From IMG/VR virus record IMGVR_UViG_3300048918_000265, positions 1 to 20,816 of that record: a stretch of 20,816 nucleotides of DNA, one strand, 5' to 3'. Below are positions 1 to 7,206 of this stretch, one piece after another (positions within the stretch are counted from its first letter, which is position 1; the number at the start of each line of letters is the position of its first letter). Both the position numbers and the translations under genes were made by a program. This DNA comes from a virus. The notes below the pieces were generated by a model. It made no database searches. It saw only the letters and a program-made list of their open reading frames with translations, and was not told the origin of the DNA.

Positions 1-879
1 CCGTCGGTGGACCTCGACGACATCGAGTACGTGATGGACGATGCCGAGCGGCTGATCATCACGCAGTGGCGGATCGCGGGCGCGACGCTGGTCAGCATCC
101 CGGCATTCGCGGACGTGTCCATCACCCTCGACCCGCTCCCCGCCGAACCTGTAGGCGCGCCGGAACCTGCCCTCATGGACGCCATGTGGGCATCGGCCGC
201 GCCCGAACAGCTGCCCCCGGCCGACTGGTTCCAGCGGCCGGACGTCGACCAGCTCACCCCGCTCACCATCACCGACACGGGCCGCGTCTTCGGGCACATC
301 GCAGGCTGGTCGACCTGCCACGTCGGGATGCCCGGCTGCGTCACCCCGCCGTCGTCGCCCACGGGCTACACGTACTTCCACGTGGCCGAGCAGCGCACCC
401 AGGACGGCTCCGTACTGCCCGTAGGGACGCTCGTAGCCGGACCCCGGCACGCCGACGCCCAACTCGCCTTCCGCGCCGCGCAGGAGCACTACGACGACCC
501 CAGCGCAGCCGTCGCCCGCGTCGTCGCAGGCGAGGACGAGCACGGCATCTGGGTCGCCGGCTGGCTGCTCCCCGGCGCCACACCGGAGGCCCTGGACGTG
601 TTCCGGTCGTCGCCCGTCTCCGGCGACTGGCGACGTGTGGGCGGCGCGCTGGAGCTGATCGGCGTGTGCAGCGTGAACACGCCCGGGTTCCCGGTGCCGC
701 GTGCGCGGGTGCACTTCGCGGCGGGCGCTCAGCGGGCCCTGATCGGCTCGTTCGGCATCACGCCCGTAGCCGGGAGCCTGGAGGAGGCGAAGACGTCGGA
801 GTCGTTCGTACTGACGGTTCCGGATGGTGATCTGGCTCGTGCCCGGTGGGCGTGGGCCGCAGCGACGACGGAGGACTGA
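1..879 (+). CDS. Capsid maturation protease, C-terminal part (5' end cut by window)
   Basis: The frame is open to the left edge, so the true start lies outside; residue numbers here count from the GTG at base 7. Residues about 21-40 contain ATLVSIPAFADVSI, which matches the closing motif of S78/U35-type prohead protease domains (ATLV.IPAF..A.I). The canonical protease domain would therefore mostly lie upstream. Residues about 90-240 form a second region common in actinophage proteases: GHIAGW with His97, TCHVG with His105, YFHVAE with His125 and SPVSGDWR with Ser205. This could be a second protease-like fold; that is inference. The role is cleavage of scaffold and capsid N-termini during prohead maturation. 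The stop is followed one base later by the next gene. Confidence in the family is good because position just before the capsid genes and motifs agree. Confidence 0.82.
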   Translation, partial: PSVDLDDIEYVMDDAERLIITQWRIAGATLVSIPAFADVSITLDPLPAEPVGAPEPALMDAMWASAAPEQLPPADWFQRPDVDQLTPLTITDTGRVFGHIAGWSTCHVGMPGCVTPPSSPTGYTYFHVAEQRTQDGSVLPVGTLVAGPRHADAQLAFRAAQEHYDDPSAAVARVVAGEDEHGIWVAGWLLPGATPEALDVFRSSPVSGDWRRVGGALELIGVCSVNTPGFPVPRARVHFAAGAQRALIGSFGITPVAGSLEEAKTSESFVLTVPDGDLARARWAWAAATTED

Positions 880-880
880 C

Positions 881-1051
881 ATGGGATGCAACTGCGGTGG
901 TGCGAAGACCCTGACCGACTACAAGGTCACCTATCGGGGTGGCGGCGAGGACTTCGTCACCCATGAGGACGGCGGCCTGGTGAAGGTCCGGCAGCTTCTC
1001 GCCAAGTCCCCGAAGGGCGGCACCTACCAGGCTGTCGCCCGCAAGGCGTAA
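881..1051 (+). CDS. Small CxCGG head-region protein (56 aa)
   Basis: ATG at 881, one base after the protease stop, encodes 56 residues starting MGCNCGG. A lysine-bearing segment (KTLTDYKVTYRGGG) and a C-terminal helical, basic stretch (VRQLLAKSPKGG) follow. Small proteins beginning with a C-x-CGG motif are recurrent just before the capsid gene in actinophages, and I recall them being grouped in a DUF family; the function is unknown. The two N-terminal cysteines could bind metal or form a disulfide, which is inference. The GAGGA within the end of the protease gene can serve as ribosome binding site. It is tightly coupled to the protease gene and followed by a hairpin, so it closes the upstream transcription block. 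Confidence 0.75.
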   Translation: MGCNCGGAKTLTDYKVTYRGGGEDFVTHEDGGLVKVRQLLAKSPKGGTYQAVARKA

Positions 1052-1063
1052 CACACCGAGCAG

Positions 1064-1089
1064 CCGGGCGCCTATTACAAGGCGCCCGG
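1064..1089 (+). terminator. Hairpin, 9-bp perfect stem, before capsid gene
   Basis: CCGGGCGCC at 1064-1072 pairs exactly with GGCGCCCGG at 1081-1089 around an 8-base loop. The sequence after it is TTCGCGG, so the U-tract is poor. It may be an attenuator or an mRNA processing/stability element that separates the protease block from the capsid gene. The remaining 90 bases before the capsid start show no promoter I would defend, apart from a lone TACCCT at 1096-1101. Confidence 0.5.
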
Positions 1090-1182
1090 TTCGCGGTACC
1101 CTGACCACAGCTTCGACGCTGGCGGTGGGCCGGTCGACGCAGACGAGTTGTTGTCGTTCTGCCGACCGGAAGGAGACCCGCC

Positions 1183-2943
1183 ATGGCAGAGCAGACCCCG
1201 GAGACCCCCGAGCCCAACGAGCCGGCCTCCTTCGACATCACCAACGCCACCGACGAGCAGCTGCTCGCCGAGTACGGGCGCGTCCGCACTGCCGGAGCCG
1301 AGCTGTCCGCCCAGACGGACGCCGACCCGAACGAGCTCTCCGGCCTCGCCACGCAGCTCCAGGAGCTGTCCGCCGCGATCGCCGAGCGGAAGACCCGCGC
1401 CGAAGCCACGCAGGCCGCCCGCGACGCGTTCTCCAACGCGCCCGAGCTCACCATCCCGGCACAGGTCATCCCGGCCCCAGCCGTCGAGACCCCGGCCGAG
1501 GAGCCCGTCGTGGAGACGCCGCCCGCACAGGTCCCGTCCGTCTCCCAGATGGCCGCCCAGACCGTGATGCCCCAGACGCCCCCGACCGCCGAGCCCCGGC
1601 GCGACAAGGTGTACCTCCGCTTCAGCTCCGACGCCGCTGGCGTCATGGGCAAGAACGTCGGCGAGGACACCGACTCCCACGCCCTCACCGAGGCCAGCCA
1701 GAAGCTGTTCCGCCAGTTCGGAACCGCCCGCCCCGGTAGCCCCGGCGTTAAGGCCGACCGCGCCCTCGGCCAGTTCGTCCGCGAGCGCGAGCACCGCATC
1801 ACCGGCGACCGCAACACCGACGCCCGCCTCATCAAGGAAGTCCGCGACCCCCGGCGCCTCGACGGCGGCAGCCTCATGAAGGCCTGGGAGAACAGCGTCA
1901 CCCAGTCCAACAGCCTCACCGCTGCGGCTGGCTGGTGCGCCCCGTCGGAGATCCGCTACGACCTGTGCTCCCTGTGGGAGCGGGACGGGTTCATCGACCT
2001 GCCCACCATGGGCGCCCCTCGCGGTGGTGTGCAGTACTCGAAGGACTACCTGTGGCGCCAGATCATGGACGCCGGCCTCACCAGCTTCACGAAGCTGACC
2101 GAGGCGCAGGTCATCGCGGACACCCCGAAGAACTGCACCGAGCTGCCGTGCCCGACGTTCACCGAGCGGCGCATGGACGTGGCCGCCACCTGCATCACCG
2201 GAAGCTTCCTCCAGGACGTCGGCTATCCGGAGAACGTGTCCAACCTCGTCGACGGCCTCCTCCTCAAGCACGAGGTGGAGATCAACCGCGACATCATCTC
2301 CCAGATCGTCACCCAGGCCGGTGCGGCCGTCGTGATCCCCGGCCAGGGCGCCGCGGCTTCCGGTTTCTCGCCGGACACGTCGGCCGTCGCGTCGATCCTC
2401 GCGGCCGTCGACATCGCCGCGATCGACATGCGGTACCGCGAGCGGATGGGCTTCAACCGGGTCCTGGAGATCGTGCTGCCGCAGTGGATCGTCGCGCAGT
2501 GGCGTGCGGATATCTCGCGCCGGAACGGCTACCACACGGACCCGTTCGCGGCCGCGACCACGGCGGAGATCGCCCGTTGGTTCTCGGTCCGGAACATCCG
2601 CCCGCAGTTCGTCCGTGACTGGCAGGACGCGCAGTCCGGCCTTGCGACGGGCCCCGGTGACATCACCGCCCCGATCACGCCGATCCAGGCCCTTCCGTCC
2701 ACGGTGAACTTCCTGATCTACCCGGCCGGCGCGATCGTGCTGCTCCGCGAGGACGTCGTCACGCTCACCAACGTGTACGACTCCACGAACCTGAAGCAGA
2801 ACCTCTTCACGGCCCTCTTCACGGAGGAGGGCTACGCGCCCATCTACCCGTGCGGCGAGGTCAAGATGTACACCGCCCAGGCCTGCCCGTCCGGTGTGAC
2901 CGCGCGCCAGGAGTACACGTCGTGCGCCGTCCCGGCTGCGTGA
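1183..2943 (+). CDS. Major capsid protein with fused scaffold-like N-terminal domain
   Basis: ATG at 1183 is preceded by GGAAGGAG at 1168-1175, a strong SD at good spacing. The product has 586 residues. Residues 1 to about 135 are rich in Ala, Glu and Pro with predicted helix, as in a scaffold or delta domain. A basic segment (PRRDKVYLRF) follows near residue 138. The HK97-type shell domain probably starts near residue 245 (AAGWCAPSEIRYDLC) and runs to the end, with the FTALFTEEGYAPIYPCGE region near the C-terminus. This Cys-containing core is typical of Streptomyces phage capsid proteins. About 586 residues is long for a capsid subunit, which supports a cleaved N-terminal scaffold processed by the protease upstream. 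Eight cysteines all lie in the shell part. A strong terminator follows. Confidence 0.88.
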   Translation: MAEQTPETPEPNEPASFDITNATDEQLLAEYGRVRTAGAELSAQTDADPNELSGLATQLQELSAAIAERKTRAEATQAARDAFSNAPELTIPAQVIPAPAVETPAEEPVVETPPAQVPSVSQMAAQTVMPQTPPTAEPRRDKVYLRFSSDAAGVMGKNVGEDTDSHALTEASQKLFRQFGTARPGSPGVKADRALGQFVREREHRITGDRNTDARLIKEVRDPRRLDGGSLMKAWENSVTQSNSLTAAAGWCAPSEIRYDLCSLWERDGFIDLPTMGAPRGGVQYSKDYLWRQIMDAGLTSFTKLTEAQVIADTPKNCTELPCPTFTERRMDVAATCITGSFLQDVGYPENVSNLVDGLLLKHEVEINRDIISQIVTQAGAAVVIPGQGAAASGFSPDTSAVASILAAVDIAAIDMRYRERMGFNRVLEIVLPQWIVAQWRADISRRNGYHTDPFAAATTAEIARWFSVRNIRPQFVRDWQDAQSGLATGPGDITAPITPIQALPSTVNFLIYPAGAIVLLREDVVTLTNVYDSTNLKQNLFTALFTEEGYAPIYPCGEVKMYTAQACPSGVTARQEYTSCAVPAA

Positions 2944-2958
2944 CCTACCCCGTGATCC

Positions 2959-2998
2959 GGGCCGCCCGCTCAACCGTCGTCCGGGCGGGCGGCCCTTT
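2959..2998 (+). terminator. Rho-independent terminator after major capsid gene
   Basis: GGGCCGCCCG at 2959-2968 pairs with CGGGCGGCCC at 2986-2995 (extendable by one C-G pair) and is followed by TTT at 2996-2998. It lies 16 bases after the capsid stop and just before the very strong SD of the next gene. It probably lowers read-through so that capsid mRNA exceeds that of downstream genes. Confidence 0.8.
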
Positions 2999-3018
2999 GA
3001 TTGAAGGGAGGTGACGAC

Positions 3019-3885
3019 ATGGCAGTGATCATCCCGAGCGGAGCGGAGATCCCCACCCCGGCACCGGGCAGCCGCCGGTACGGCGTGTTCGATGCAGCTG
3101 TACGCGGGCAGCTCGACCCCAGGTATGTGGCTTCCGGGGTCCAGTTCTATCCGGAGGACTGCGGCGTCGGCGTCCTCACGTACGACCCCACCTGTGCCCC
3201 ACCGCACGCCGAGAAGGTGTTCGATGACACGGGGGTCGAGTTCGTTGAGGCCAACCCGTACTGGCTGTACGCCTCGTACCAGTGCGGCACGGTCGGCACG
3301 TCCGCCGACGACGCGCGGCGCCGTGTACAGAAGCGGTACAACGCCGGTGCCCAGCATGCCGTCGAGAGCACCATGTGGACCGGCAGTGGCATCACTGGCG
3401 TACCGGCCCTCACGACCGCAGGCGCCACCACCATCGTTCCCGGCGCTCCCGGGGCCGGGGCGGCCGTAGCGGCTGCGGAGCAGGCGTTCTGGGACCTCCA
3501 CGGCTATGCGGGCGTCCTGCACGTCAACACTGCCGCCTACGCCGCGCTCGCCTACGCGCAGATGATGACCCGCGCTGGCGGAGCCGGCACCTACCGGACG
3601 CCGCTCGGCACGGCCCTGTCGTTCGGCGCCGGATACGGAGTAACCGGGCCCGCCGGAGTAGCTCCCGCGACTGGGTTCACGTGGGCGTTCATCACGCCGC
3701 AGACCTACATCCTGGCCACGGAAGTCCGGCAGCCGGATCCCATCCAGACGCTGGACCGGCAGGCGAACCAGTGGAAGGCGCTCGCCGAGACCGTGTACCT
3801 GCACACGTGGGTGTGCGGTGACGTGGTCGCCGTGCAGATCCCGCTGGCTGCTCCGGGCGTCTCGACAGTGAGCCTCCCGGCATGA
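3019..3885 (+). CDS. Second capsid-like protein (HK97-fold-like, possible pentamer or minor capsid subunit)
   Basis: ATG at 3019 is chosen over the in-frame TTG at 3001 because AAGGGAGGTGA sits directly upstream. The 288-residue product has parts that look like an HK97 fold: a long helix at residues 98-118 (ARRRVQKRYNAGAQHAVEST) followed by MWTGSG, like a spine helix ending in a glycine turn. Further on are HVNTAAYAALAYAQMM at 168-183, PLGTALSFGAGYGV at 195-208, FITPQTYILATEV at 224-236 and WVCGDVVAVQIPL at 264-276, like the P- and A-domain strands of capsid proteins. Some actinophages do encode separate hexamer and pentamer capsid proteins; assignment here is inference. It has four cysteines. 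Alternatives are a head decoration or connector protein. The stop overlaps the next start (ATGA). Confidence 0.55.
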   Translation: MAVIIPSGAEIPTPAPGSRRYGVFDAAVRGQLDPRYVASGVQFYPEDCGVGVLTYDPTCAPPHAEKVFDDTGVEFVEANPYWLYASYQCGTVGTSADDARRRVQKRYNAGAQHAVESTMWTGSGITGVPALTTAGATTIVPGAPGAGAAVAAAEQAFWDLHGYAGVLHVNTAAYAALAYAQMMTRAGGAGTYRTPLGTALSFGAGYGVTGPAGVAPATGFTWAFITPQTYILATEVRQPDPIQTLDRQANQWKALAETVYLHTWVCGDVVAVQIPLAAPGVSTVSLPA

Positions 3886-4097
3886 GCCGTGCTGATTGGG
3901 TGACCGTGATCCCGGAGCCCGGCAGGACCCAGAAGACCGCGATTGCCCTCCTGGCGGTCGCTGACGATCCGGCTGACGTACAGACCCAGCGTGGCGGGAC
4001 CGAGTTCCTCGTCGCCCCGTACGTCGCCGACCGGTACAACAACGTGCCCGAGCCGACCCCTCGGCCGCGGCGCCGCGCGAAGAAGGAGGAGCAGTAA
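3882..4097 (+). CDS. Small head/neck protein, 71 aa, unknown function
   Basis: ATG at 3882 overlaps the previous stop (ATGA), so translation is probably coupled. The protein has a compact N-terminal part with beta-like segments (WVTVIPEP, TAIALLAVAD, EFLVAPYVADRY) and a Pro/Arg/Lys-rich tail (PRPRRRAKKEEQ). I do not recognise a named family. Small beta-domain proteins are common between capsid and neck genes of siphoviruses and may be stoppers or head accessory proteins. The codons for the KKEE tail contain AAGGAGGA at 4083-4090, which is the SD of the major tail gene that follows, so the tail sequence is constrained by two functions. Confidence 0.7.
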   Translation: MSRADWVTVIPEPGRTQKTAIALLAVADDPADVQTQRGGTEFLVAPYVADRYNNVPEPTPRPRRRAKKEEQ

Positions 4098-4804
4098 TGT
4101 CTGTCGAATGCGTCAAGCTGTCGCGCGGCAAGAGGATGCGCATCACGAAGCTGAACGAGTGCGGCACGGTCGTCAACGGCCCGAACTCGACGCTGACCGC
4201 TGAGGCCCTGGTCACGGGAACGTTCACCCCGAACTACGCCGACGCCCAGGAGATCTCGATCCTCAACGCCAACGGCGACGAGTGCATCTCCGACCGGTCG
4301 GCCGTGTCGCTCCGCTGGATCGACATCTCGCTGAACGTGTGCACGTGGGACCCGACGATGATCTCCCTGATCACCGGCGACCCGCTCGTCCTCGACAACG
4401 CCACGCCCACCCCGAACATGGTCGGCTGGTCCATCGACACCGACCTCACGGGCAGCGCGAATTTCGGCCTGGAGATCTGGTCCGGGATCGCCGGCCAGTC
4501 CTGCGACCCGGCCGGGAACACGAAGTACCAGTACTGGCTGCTGCCATGGGTGAAGGACGCCCAGTGGGGCGAGTGGCTGCCGGCGCAGAACGACGGCATC
4601 ACGGCCACGTGGACGGCGCGTGCGGTGGTGGGCGGCAACTGGGGTGTCGGCCCGTACGACGACGTGCTGCGGGATGCTGTGACGCCGGCAACGCTGACGG
4701 CGCTGACGACGCCGATCGGTGACACGGAGGTGCTGCGGTCTGTCACGACGTCGGCGCCGCTGCCGACGGCCGTGTGTGGCGCGACGGTACTGCCGGTTCC
4801 GTAA
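4097..4804 (+). CDS. Major tail (tube) protein
   Basis: ATG at 4097 shares one base with the previous stop (TAATG) and has AAGGAGGA 6 bases upstream. The 235-residue product contains WSIDTDLTGSANFGLEIWSG and YQYWLLPWVKDAQWGEW, which I recognise as features of tail tube proteins of actinophages; such proteins polymerise into hexameric rings around the tape measure. It has six cysteines (VEC, NEC, DEC, NVC, SC, VC). The gene precedes the adaptor and terminator genes, whereas in most siphoviruses the tube gene follows them. A 13-bp hairpin after the gene fits a highly expressed structural gene. The alternative, a head decoration protein, is less likely given the FGLEIW/YWLLPW pattern. Confidence 0.72.
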   Translation: MSVECVKLSRGKRMRITKLNECGTVVNGPNSTLTAEALVTGTFTPNYADAQEISILNANGDECISDRSAVSLRWIDISLNVCTWDPTMISLITGDPLVLDNATPTPNMVGWSIDTDLTGSANFGLEIWSGIAGQSCDPAGNTKYQYWLLPWVKDAQWGEWLPAQNDGITATWTARAVVGGNWGVGPYDDVLRDAVTPATLTALTTPIGDTEVLRSVTTSAPLPTAVCGATVLPVP

Positions 4805-4811
4805 CTGGGCT

Positions 4812-4845
4812 GGGGTCCTGGTCGACGGCTCCCGACCAGGACCCC
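4812..4845 (+). terminator. 13-bp perfect hairpin after major tail gene
   Basis: GGGGTCCTGGTCG at 4812-4824 pairs perfectly with CGACCAGGACCCC at 4833-4845 around an 8-base loop, 8 bases after the major tail stop. No U-tract follows (CTACCGAGG), so it may be a weak terminator or a 3' mRNA stabiliser. Confidence 0.65.
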
Positions 4846-4866
4846 CTACCGAGGTAAGGGACGCTC

Positions 4867-5334
4867 ATGTCTCTCGCTCCGTACTCTGAGCGGTACTGGT
4901 TCGCCGACGAGTCGCTCGCCGTCGGGCAGATGGCGCACGTCTTCCCCCGATTCTCCAACATCCACGCGGCACTGTTCCAGGACCAGGCAGGCACGATTCC
5001 CCTGCCGAACCCGCTCCCGACGGACGCGTCCGGGTTCCTGACGTTCTTCGTGGAGAACGGCGACTATTGGGTGTACGTCAACGGTCAGGCGTTCTACGTG
5101 ATCGTCGACCTCGACCCGAACCTCACGCACGTCTGGCCCAGCACGTTCCGATGGGAGCAGACAGCCCCAGCCACGACGTGGGTGATCGCGCACGGCCTGA
5201 ACTCGAAGCCTGCCGTAATCACCCTGGGCACGGCAGACGAGATCATTTTCGGCGACGTGGCGTATCAGGACGACGACAACCTCACCATCACTTTCGGCGC
5301 CCCCGTGGCGGGCGTCGCCTACCTGCGGAGGTAG
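4867..5334 (+). CDS. Fibre-type structural protein, two beta domains (155 aa)
   Basis: ATG at 4867 has AAGGGA upstream in the short gap after the hairpin. Residues about 15-80 hold a domain seen in phage fibre and appendage proteins: LFQDQAGTIPLPNPLPTDA, then GFLTFFVENGDYWVYVNG, that is a D-x-aGt...lpNPl.tDa.G...F...G.Y pattern. Residues about 95-155 match another common fibre module (WVIAHGLNSKP, then LTITFGAPVAGVAYL). No enzyme motif is visible. Its position just behind the capsid and major tail genes leaves open whether it decorates the head, the tail shaft or the tip. It is the first of three adjacent fibre-like genes. Confidence 0.6.
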   Translation: MSLAPYSERYWFADESLAVGQMAHVFPRFSNIHAALFQDQAGTIPLPNPLPTDASGFLTFFVENGDYWVYVNGQAFYVIVDLDPNLTHVWPSTFRWEQTAPATTWVIAHGLNSKPAVITLGTADEIIFGDVAYQDDDNLTITFGAPVAGVAYLRR

Positions 5335-5336
5335 CC

Positions 5337-5687
5337 GTGCCCGGAGTGCAGTTCTTCAACGACATCGATCTGAACGGCTTCAAGAACACCGAGATGGCCC
5401 CCGGCGTTGCCGGAACTGACGGGGTCAACGTCAACCAGCTCACCGCAGCCGTCGCTGCCGTGGCCGCGCAGGGCTTCGCGCAGGACGTTGGCGACGGAGC
5501 CGCCCTCACCTACAACGTCGTCCACAACTTCGCGACCCTCGACGTCATGGTGCAGGTCTTCGAGAAGGCCACCAACCACAACGTCATGGTCGATGTGCGC
5601 CGCGTCGACACCAACACTGTGCAGGTTGGCTTCGGCCTGGCGCCCGCGCTGAACTCGTACCGCGTCCTGGTGATCCCGGTCCCGTGA
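5337..5687 (+). CDS. Fibre-type structural protein, single beta domain (116 aa)
   Basis: GTG at 5337 is supported by GGAGG at 5327-5331, which overlaps the previous stop codon. The N-terminus (VQFFNDIDLNGFKNTEMAPG) resembles fibre segments of the form F...DlNg.kI.n...g. After a short helix (LTAAVAAVAAQGFAQ), residues about 55-116 form a module with NVVHNFATLDVMVQVFE and VGFGLAPALNSYRVLVIP. The pattern H-N-x-x-T-x-D-V-x-V-x-V followed by V.F...P....YRV.V is frequent at the C-termini of phage appendage proteins. The next gene overlaps by GTGA. Whether it forms head or tail fibres cannot be decided here. Confidence 0.62.
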   Translation: MPGVQFFNDIDLNGFKNTEMAPGVAGTDGVNVNQLTAAVAAVAAQGFAQDVGDGAALTYNVVHNFATLDVMVQVFEKATNHNVMVDVRRVDTNTVQVGFGLAPALNSYRVLVIPVP

Positions 5688-6358
5688 CCAGCAACCGCAT
5701 GGCCCACCTCCTCCGCCTGTTGGGCCGTACGACAGCGCCCAGCGCCCCGGCGGAGGGGGAAGTCTGGTACGACTCCGTCGGAGACCGCGTGCAGGCCTCC
5801 GACGGCCAGTCGGGGCAGCCGCTCACCGTCGGCCCGGAGGGCAACCTGCCCGTCATCCGCTCCACGGCATGGCACGGGCTGCCTGCGTACGGCGCCACCG
5901 GAACAGCGAACGTCCCGGTCAACCAGATGTTCGCGCTGCCGTTCTGGCCTGGACGCACCTGCACCATCACCGCAGTCGCAGCCAACGTGACCCTGGCACT
6001 CGTCGGCGGAAACCTCCGCTTCGGCCTGTACGCCTCCGACGGCATCCTCCCGACGACGCTCGTCGCCGACTACGGCACCGTCGGCGCCGGCGTGACGGGA
6101 ATCCGCTCGATCACCGGACTGTCCACAGCCGTCCGGCCGGTCCTCTACTACCTGGTCATCGGCCGGCAGGGCGGCGTCGTGAACTTGGGCCTTACCACCA
6201 GGGTCACGTGGGACCCGATCGTCTCCGAGACGACACCGACGATCACCGGGGCCCTGAACAGCTACATCCAGACCGGGATCAGCGGCAGCCTGCCTGCCAC
6301 GTTCGGAACCCCCGCTGGCTTGGACACTGCCCCCGCTATCTCTGTGCAGCTCACCTAG
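5684..6358 (+). CDS. Minor tail / fibre protein with jelly-roll-like C-terminus (224 aa)
   Basis: GTG at 5684 overlaps the previous stop (GTGA); an ATG 15 bases further in is an alternative. Residues about 20-45 carry APAEGEVWYDSVGDRVQASD, the G-x-x-WYD...d.r...dG anchor module of many actinophage minor tail proteins. The rest (residues about 60-224) is beta-rich with a jelly-roll look: FALPFWPGRTCTITAVAANV, RFGLYASDGILPTTLV, YYLVIGRQGG. The same kind of domain recurs in the protein at 12807, so the two may be distant paralogues placed on opposite sides of the tape measure gene. Probable role is surface or carbohydrate binding, inferred only. Confidence 0.62.
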   Translation: MTSNRMAHLLRLLGRTTAPSAPAEGEVWYDSVGDRVQASDGQSGQPLTVGPEGNLPVIRSTAWHGLPAYGATGTANVPVNQMFALPFWPGRTCTITAVAANVTLALVGGNLRFGLYASDGILPTTLVADYGTVGAGVTGIRSITGLSTAVRPVLYYLVIGRQGGVVNLGLTTRVTWDPIVSETTPTITGALNSYIQTGISGSLPATFGTPAGLDTAPAISVQLT

Positions 6359-6369
6359 GGACGACGATC

Positions 6370-7206
6370 ATGCCCGTTATCGACTTCGGCGTCGGCGCCA
6401 CGGCCGATCCGCCCGGCCCGTGCCAGTGGCCCATCGACACCACGTGCTGCCCGGACTGGGCGACGTACGACCCGGAGGTGCAGCAGCGGGCCACGACGCT
6501 TGCTGTCGCGATCCTCGACGGCCTCACCGGAAGGCAGTTCGCGCAGTGCGCCGTGAACTACCGGCCGTGCGGCCCGAAGTGCACGGGCGGCTCCGGGTAC
6601 ATGACGTGGCCGGTCGGAACGCCCGGCGTGGCCGCTGGTGGTGGCCCGTGGATGATCCCGTACGTCGACGCCGGCGTGTGGCGGAACTGCGGCTGCACCG
6701 GCGGCTGCACCTGCGCAGCAAGCTGCGAGACCCCGTTCCCGACATCCGTCGCTTCGGTCACTTCGGTCGCTATTGACGGGATCGAGCTCAACCCGGCGGC
6801 CTACCGGCTGGACTCGTGGCGTGGGATCCCGCGACTGGTGCGCGTGGACGGCGAGTGCTGGCCGCAGTGCCAGGACATGAACGTCAACGCCGGTGAGATC
6901 GGTTCGTTCGTCATCACCTACCAGCCGGGCCGGCCGCTTCCCGTGGCCGGGCAGATCGCCGCTGGCGAGTTCGCCTGCGAGATCGCGAAGGCCTGTGTGG
7001 GCGCCGACTGCGCGCTGCCGCAGCAGATGGCTTCCCTGTCTCGCAACGGCGTGGACATCGAGGTTGTCGACCCCACCACAGTCGCCGAGGAAGGCCTGAC
7101 AGGCCTGCCGAACGTGGATCTGTGGATCAGGTCGATTAACCCGGCTCGCCGCGCCCAGCGGTCGCGTGTGGCCTCGGTGGACACGTACCGGGGGCGGTTC
7201 TCGTGA
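6370..7206 (+). CDS. Head-to-tail adaptor, cysteine-rich (278 aa)
   Basis: ATG at 6370 is preceded by a weak AGGGACGA. The C-terminal half (VRVDGECWPQC, GSFVITYQPGRPLP, AAGEFACEIAKAC, EGLTGLPNVDLWIRSINP) has the helix-and-strand pattern I associate with gp6/gp15-type adaptors that dock on the portal. Sixteen cysteines occur in 278 residues (18, 26, 27, 60, 67, 71, 107, 109, 113, 115, 119, 163, 167, 203, 209, 214), with a tight cluster C-x-C-x3-C-x-C-x3-C at 107-119. This is far denser than in neighbouring proteins and suggests disulfides or a metal site formed in the virion. The GTG of the next gene overlaps its stop. Confidence 0.65.
   Translation: MPVIDFGVGATADPPGPCQWPIDTTCCPDWATYDPEVQQRATTLAVAILDGLTGRQFAQCAVNYRPCGPKCTGGSGYMTWPVGTPGVAAGGGPWMIPYVDAGVWRNCGCTGGCTCAASCETPFPTSVASVTSVAIDGIELNPAAYRLDSWRGIPRLVRVDGECWPQCQDMNVNAGEIGSFVITYQPGRPLPVAGQIAAGEFACEIAKACVGADCALPQQMASLSRNGVDIEVVDPTTVAEEGLTGLPNVDLWIRSINPARRAQRSRVASVDTYRGRFS

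Follow-up and report, generated by a model that had tools for sequence, protein, structure and literature searches.

A predicted HK97-fold protein encoded behind the major capsid gene is a probable pentamer protein, with a putative RNA element between the two genes

The window, a 20.8-kb virus record (20,816 nucleotides), encodes side by side two proteins modelled with an HK97 fold, a 586-residue major capsid protein and a 288-residue protein that very probably forms the pentamers of the head. A hexamer/pentamer capsid pair is already known in related phages, and the pair described here is a further example; the present analysis adds predicted-structure evidence for the fold, a quantification of the pairing of the two genes and a putative RNA element in the gap between them.

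Results and discussion

Gene order of the head-tail module

The order of the module was read from the list of open reading frames (ORFs) and their phrog matches. The ORF proposed in the sequence-only reading at 3019-3885 on the + strand proved exact, with an ATG start, 288 codons for amino acids and a TGA stop, and it is preceded by a 586-residue ORF at 1183-2943, leaving an intergenic gap of 75 nt. As portal/protease-related, major tail and adaptor ORFs adjoin the capsid pair, the module is considered an ordinary head-tail module:

7-879, portal/protease-related ORF (phrog search)
1183-2943, + strand, predicted major capsid (hexamer) protein, 586 residues (phrog_777 at E 7e-104, tblastn labels, HK97 fold in the AlphaFold2 model)
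3019-3885, + strand, probable pentamer (vertex) capsid protein, 288 residues, without a delta-like N-terminal domain (phrog_779, AlphaFold2 model)
4097-4804, major tail protein (phrog_792)
5869-7206, head-tail adaptor (phrog_783)

In the last of these ORFs (445 residues) the adaptor match is limited to residues 183-441, which leaves the first 180 residues outside it. In its C-terminal stretch the ORF at 5067-5687 resembles phrog_2647 (E 1e-15), a head decoration family of phages, and the neighbouring ORF at 4867-5334 has, by eye, a similar-looking C-terminal domain.

Predicted fold of the 288-residue protein

An AlphaFold2 model, built from an alignment of 108 homologues from which the pentamer-type proteins of loci L100, L102, L130 and L075 had been removed by hand, reached a pLDDT of 94.0 and a pTM of 0.88. 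In a Foldseek search against the PDB (best E 3.0e-9) the best 50 matches listed were HK97-fold shells, comprising phage, GTA and PICI capsids as well as encapsulins. Structural alignment with VIA-align gave Z 14.2 against HK97 Head II (231 residues, 4.1 Å, model residues 15-276 on 126-383) and Z 13.4 against mature HK97 (1ohg_A, model residues 1-276 on 112-383), and in a library of viral models a FuzzBuster protein of 282 residues ranked first (TM 0.82-0.84), with known capsid proteins next. A fold unlike that of HK97 had been named beforehand as grounds for rejecting the proposal of a second capsid-type protein; the model has the HK97 fold from end to end. N-arm, E-loop region, spine helix and P and A domains follow each other in order, and the P- and A-domain order proposed from the sequence agrees with the model as well as with a structural alignment that spans residues 1-284. 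The spine-like helix described as ending in MWTGSG was recovered by DSSP on the model, with MWTGSG as residues 119-124:

3304-3390, + strand, predicted spine helix, residues 96-124, ending in MWTGSG (DSSP on the AlphaFold2 model)

Since residue 1 aligns to residue 112 of 1ohg_A, the protein appears to be a complete HK97 subunit that starts approximately where the mature HK97 chain starts. With its high confidence over the full length, the HK97 model puts the pentamer annotation found among relatives of the protein on a structural footing.

The 586-residue major capsid protein

The larger protein matches phrog_777, a major head protein family, at E 7e-104. With this protein as query, tblastn returned 836 phage records, all at less than 60% identity, and most among the 40 matches listed carry the label 'major capsid hexamer protein'. 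The AlphaFold2 model (pLDDT 84.3) shows an HK97 fold behind an N-terminal extension of 250 residues, which is laid out as a coiled coil (residues 24-84), a Pro/Glu-rich linker and a small domain, with pLDDT dips at 102-108 and 244-256:

1183-1932, + strand, N-terminal extension, residues 1-250 (secondary structure, pLDDT dips)
1933-2883, + strand, predicted HK97-fold core, residues 251-567 (VIA-align)

The core aligned to HK97 prohead I with Z 13.5 and to mature HK97 with Z 13.1 (residues 251-567 on 117-383), and many rows of the hexamer structural alignment begin at residue 251-266. By analogy with the delta domain of HK97, the N-terminal 250 residues are probably a built-in, delta-like scaffold region that is removed by a protease.

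With both proteins modelled as HK97 folds and the pair falling into phrog_777 and phrog_779, the earlier view that the window encodes two separate capsid-type proteins stands. An hhalign comparison paired residues 96-280 of the pentamer protein in order with residues 349-571 of the hexamer protein, at E 0.0049 for one comparison and with a probability of only 7%; the match fits, without proving, a possible divergence of the two from one ancestor. Conserved cysteines are found in the pentamer protein (C59 and C89) as well as in the hexamer protein (C252 and C323), and disulfides of the mature shell are a possible explanation for them.

Family membership and annotation

The 288-residue protein matches phrog_779, a family of unknown function, at E 7.2e-32 (residues 12-266 on 15-264 of 284). 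This was its sole family besides a chance-level match at E 0.2, and no connector or adaptor family was among its matches; the adaptor family phrog_783 was matched by another ORF, that at 5869-7206. Pfam holds a curated family of T4-type capsid proteins; neither the 288-residue nor the 586-residue protein matched any Pfam family at E up to 1, and a T4 gp23/gp24 sequence family was accordingly not among the matches. Sequence searches likewise found no solved structure related to either protein, and phrog_779 is absent from the accessible part of a preprint on homo-oligomer prediction.

A tblastn search with the 288-residue protein returned 116 phage records, of which 101 are Gordonia phages, and nearly all among the 60 matches listed are labelled 'hypothetical protein'. 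The GenBank label 'major capsid pentamer protein' is carried by RiverRaider gp22 and AlanGrant gp14; two proteins with this label score E 3e-108 and 2e-74 to phrog_779, a family to which all eight named-phage proteins tested belong. A comparison with actinophage pentamer proteins had been proposed from the sequence, and it turned out in favour of the proposal, with phrog_779 common to the 288-residue protein, AlanGrant gp14 and RiverRaider gp22. Identity to 12 aligned pentamer-type proteins of named phages is only 22-30%. Phages and prophages of actinobacteria widely carry the phrog_777/phrog_779 family, and in the records examined its pentamer member is mostly annotated as 'hypothetical protein' or 'unknown function'.

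Several members of the family carry additional sequence. The pentamer-type protein of Microbacterium phage SM23 (L010, 2501-3547) has collagen-like GPxG stretches in its C-terminal tail, and those of two Streptomyces prophages (L100, 9194-10912; L102, 9722-11149) contain an insertion of approximately 200-300 residues; a long ORF in L105 (8105-9580) was noted alongside. The insertion is Thr/Val-rich and beta-like and lies between segments matching residues ~60 and ~70 of the window protein, in the E-loop region. It is possibly a surface domain displayed at the capsid vertices; the sole Pfam match in the two insertions was a sub-threshold Fn3-like one in L102.

Pairing of the two capsid genes

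The pairing was assessed on 144 loci (L016-L159) gathered with the hexamer alignment alone, and the test is non-circular because no other alignment was used to gather them. A phrog_779-type gene lies downstream on the same strand in 139 of the 144 loci, and the five misses trace to contigs that were cut or to hexamer genes that are incomplete. One contig ends after the first ~80 codons of the pentamer gene (L092, a 140th case cut by the contig end), two end less than 100 nt past the hexamer gene (L038 and L064), and in the remaining two the hexamer gene is incomplete (L155 and L158). When all records were counted, including duplicates of the window's own contig, the second gene was present in 155 of 160. 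Ten loci have approximately 600-1000 nt between the hexamer and pentamer genes, which leaves room for an inserted gene (L049, L051, L058, L066, L067, L089, L091, L095, L131 and L141).

A similar picture was obtained from 297 Streptomycetaceae genomes, whose centre, G001, was picked for holding one locus and whose other members were drawn evenly. Phrog_777 matches at E below 1e-100 were obtained for 12 loci in 11 of these genomes, and a phrog_779 match follows approximately 60-110 nt downstream in all 12. The only other phrog_779 match was one fragment (E 9e-4), and the other phrog_777 matches were N-terminal stretches (E 1e-11 to 1e-3). Several phrog_779 matches in these genomes have one or two stop codons in the matched span, perhaps at its ends.

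Probable role at the capsid vertices

The 288-residue protein is placed at the pentamers because a second HK97-fold protein recalls T4 gp24 and the SaPIbov5 protein Ccm; fold, family and strict pairing point the same way, and together they make this placement very probable. In the proposed arrangement, two HK97-fold proteins with adjacent genes would build the head. The 586-residue protein would form the hexamers, with 360 subunits if T=7 or 480 if T=9, its scaffold-like extension of 250 residues probably being removed by the prohead protease, and the 288-residue protein, which is without such an extension, would form the pentamers at the 11 non-portal vertices in approximately 55 copies. In the literature searched, from which subscription journals were mostly absent, no virion proteomics or density map placing phrog_779 at the vertices was found, nor was the phrase 'capsid pentamer protein' or the combination of 'capsid pentamer' with 'mycobacteriophage'.

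Other roles for a protein of this fold have to be weighed. What has been shown is fold and gene order only, and an HK97-fold protein could sit in any capsomer, for instance as a minor subunit that is mixed into hexamers or is confined to the surroundings of the portal vertex. This appears improbable, given that strict pairing with the hexamer gene and the pentamer annotation favour an obligate icosahedral role, and that in the accessible portions of the reports on T4 gp24 and SaPIbov5 Ccm it is the pentamers that the second HK97-fold protein takes. The Ccm report, as far as accessible, also illustrates that homologues of capsid proteins can redirect assembly (PMC8569155), and the 288-residue protein might by extension be an assembly or size-determining factor that is absent from the finished virion; yet Ccm itself is described there as sitting in the pentamers of the procapsid, and every locus with a complete hexamer gene on a contig that continues also has the pentamer gene, which makes such a factor very improbable. 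Finally, encapsulins are among the best structural matches of the model (Z 14.4), as would be expected of the shell protein of a nanocompartment. HK97 capsids match equally well, however (Z 14.2-14.3, a tie within 1 Z unit), no Pfam family was matched, and the gene sits in a head module behind the hexamer gene, so that a nanocompartment shell is extremely improbable. A pentamer protein at the vertices is thus the reading that we retain.

Predicted RNA structure between the capsid genes

The 75-nt gap between the two genes is predicted to fold, and its sequence in the window scores as more structured than shuffled versions of it (z about -4). The elements are as follows:

2944-2951, + strand, C-rich arm immediately 3' of the hexamer stop codon, with the Shine-Dalgarno (SD) sequence as its predicted partner (CCT/AGG, CCC/GGG; MFE structure of 2944-3018)
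2959-2995, + strand, predicted 13-bp hairpin with an 11-nt loop at 2972-2982, GTCGTC at 2976-2981 (folding)
3004-3014, + strand, SD sequence of the pentamer gene, AAGGGAGGTGA (sequence, duplex energy)
3013-3018, + strand, GACGAC, the complement of the loop's GTCGTC, between SD and ATG (possible pseudoknot)

The sequence-only reading had noted a very strong SD sequence behind a terminator. The strength of the SD was confirmed by computation, with a duplex energy with the 16S end of -17.3 kcal/mol compared to -9.4 kcal/mol for the hexamer gene. As for the terminator, the hairpin is there (-30 kcal/mol), but the stem is followed by only three T (TTTGATTG), and since this is no T-run, the reading of 2959-2995 as a canonical terminator was dropped. 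Across loci, the eight bases after the hairpin are barely enriched in T (mean 1.42 compared to 0.99 expected; at least four T in 4 of 92 loci), and a consensus terminator scan of positions 1-6000 gave two matches where 1.4 were expected. The window alone passes the looser terminator rule of the scanner, via a shorter stem at 2976-2993. None of 4227 Rfam covariance models matched positions 2800-3200 at E up to 5. Another strong hairpin is located at 4805-4866, behind the major tail gene and before the next start; by eye it is without the arm-SD and loop-prestart pairing of the capsid gap.

For comparison across loci, the 155 records with both genes were reduced to 112 non-redundant pairs (below 85% identity, pentamer protein of at least 225 residues, named-phage loci L004-L015 set aside). 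Hairpins were compared in the 98 pairs whose gaps measure 30-150 nt, the 11 gaps above 150 nt being omitted; a first swap test drew on the 92 pairs with gaps of 40-150 nt, and a later one on the 82 whose inner hairpin has an energy of -12 kcal/mol or lower. A fold z below -2 was found for 84% of the 98 gaps, compared to 8% of stretches of the same length taken from within the pentamer gene, and a hairpin below -20 kcal/mol in 80 of 98 gaps, compared to 26/106, 29/112 and 10/112 in three control stretches.

Closer inspection centred on a clade of 26 loci, picked by hand, whose pentamer proteins are approximately 40% or more identical to that of the window. All 26 have a strong hairpin in the gap, while the inner ten bases of the stem average 40% identity and several pair types occur at each of the ten stem positions. 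These pairing counts hold by construction, since each row was folded alone, and what supports the structure independently in the clade is how it compares with shuffled sequences and with other gaps. CGTC is found in the loop, extended by two bases on either side, in 26/26 clade loci compared to 4/56 other loci, and the loop motif occurs in 2 of 44 other gaps of the same loci; hairpins with at least ten pairs and a CGTC loop also arise by chance, the loci holding 181 in all, of which 26 lie in the capsid gap. The predicted duplexes were stronger in the 26 capsid gaps than in the 44 other gaps, both for arm and SD (-13.8 compared to -8.6 kcal/mol, Mann-Whitney p 3e-7, loci not independent) and for loop and prestart bases (-11.7 compared to -5.4 kcal/mol, Mann-Whitney p 9e-10, loci again not independent).

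Swap tests, in which own partners were compared with swapped ones, gave a graded picture. For loop and prestart bases of the 26 loci, Watson-Crick runs averaged 4.92 with the own partner and 4.25 with swapped partners (z 5.0, 0/20000 permutations, relatives not independent), with covarying sets such as GTCGTC/GACGAC, GCGTC/GACGC, TCGCG/CGCGA and GTCCC/GGGAC, and by duplex energy the clade gave 10/20000. The same energy test was not significant for the 56 loci outside the clade (3800/20000), and a family-wide loop-prestart pairing, not seen in these loci, was rejected. The arm-SD swap was positive by energy for the 82 loci (0/20000), the clade (23/20000) and the 92 loci (0/20000), and not significant by contiguous Watson-Crick run in the 26 loci (z 0.9, 4108/20000). 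Arm against prestart stretch, intended as a control, was also positive by energy, probably because the prestart stretch overlaps the SD. RNAalifold on a 26-row MAFFT alignment returned no pairs, as stems differing in length and sequence are misaligned; in a closer alignment of 12 rows the stems were still shifted.

Interpretation of the RNA element

Covariation in the window's clade supports the predicted structure of the gap, which we tentatively read as a translation switch that would set the dose of the pentamer protein. The most economical account, as we infer it, is a translation-control element that hides the strong ribosome-binding site until translation of the hexamer gene ends. The conserved hairpin and short pairings to the ribosome-binding site would hold down translation of the pentamer gene, and ribosomes finishing the hexamer gene would help to start it, with the result that pentamer dose would follow hexamer dose. 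Conceivably, though short of being probable, the switch is conserved in a specific form: the CGUC loop would form a pseudoknot with bases between SD and start, the C-rich arm would mask the SD, and ribosomes ending the hexamer gene would open the structure, building the ratio of the two proteins into the mRNA. The earlier suggestion that the second protein is expressed at a separately tuned level gains support in this respect, with a translation-control structure as the better reading than a simple terminator.

Alternatively, the hairpin could be an ordinary terminator or attenuator, or a stabiliser of the mRNA 3' end, and dose could be set by partial read-through or decay and not by translation. 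Strong hairpins are indeed common behind other genes of the clade loci (below -20 kcal/mol in 21 of 44 gaps), and actinobacterial terminators may lack U-tracts. Against this stand the absence of a T-run after the stem and the finding that the loop motif, like its covariation with prestart bases, is specific to the capsid gap (26/26 compared to 2/44), and we treat this alternative, which concerns the RNA only, as a serious possibility that falls short of likelihood. The conserved folded RNA between hexamer and pentamer genes, for which the translation switch is our working interpretation, may be new; among the titles returned by a literature search on coupling, pseudoknots and capsid genes, none describes such an element.

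Comparison with known systems

A separate pentamer protein is, as far as is known, an exception among phages, with T4 as the textbook case. T4 gp24 forms 11 pentameric vertices, is approximately 20% identical to gp23 and loses a propeptide of 10 residues, according to the accessible part of the source (PMC9958956). In T4, as described there, the pentamers are made by an HK97-fold protein of their own that has diverged from the hexamer protein, and the window protein would resemble it in this; unlike gp24 with its propeptide, it is predicted to start approximately where the mature HK97 chain starts. In SaPIbov5, Ccm is a capsid-protein homologue found in pentameric capsomers (PMC8569155, accessible part), which is also the position proposed for the window protein, but Ccm belongs to a satellite and redirects the capsid of its helper, whereas the window protein is the phage's own.

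The pair in the window is of the Rosebush gp15/gp16 type, which has the same families, phrog_777 and phrog_779, and the same gene order as the window, and Rosebush-type loci, like the window, have a protease-type gene upstream and the major tail gene downstream; the record of phiAsp2 likens its own two proteins to Rosebush gp15 and gp16. The window differs from the Rosebush-type pairs of named phages in the low identity of its pentamer protein (only 22-30%). The Rosebush capsid has been resolved at 6.7 Å as T=9, with gp15 as the major capsid protein, described as possibly a novel variant of HK97; the results section of that cryo-EM paper, as far as accessible, makes no mention of gp16 (PMC7150772). 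Douge was considered as a solved relative and rejected, as the accessible part of its cryo-EM paper describes a single major capsid protein.

If the proposed switch is real, the RNA element would show how a phage fixes the hexamer-to-pentamer dose at the level of the mRNA. Translational coupling controlled by a pseudoknot is known from repY/repZ of IncI-type plasmids, where the stop codon of the first ORF likewise lies near a structure covering the second ribosome-binding site, and the bases next to the second start pair with the loop of a hairpin. The difference is that the loop in the window is predicted to pair between the SD and the start codon.
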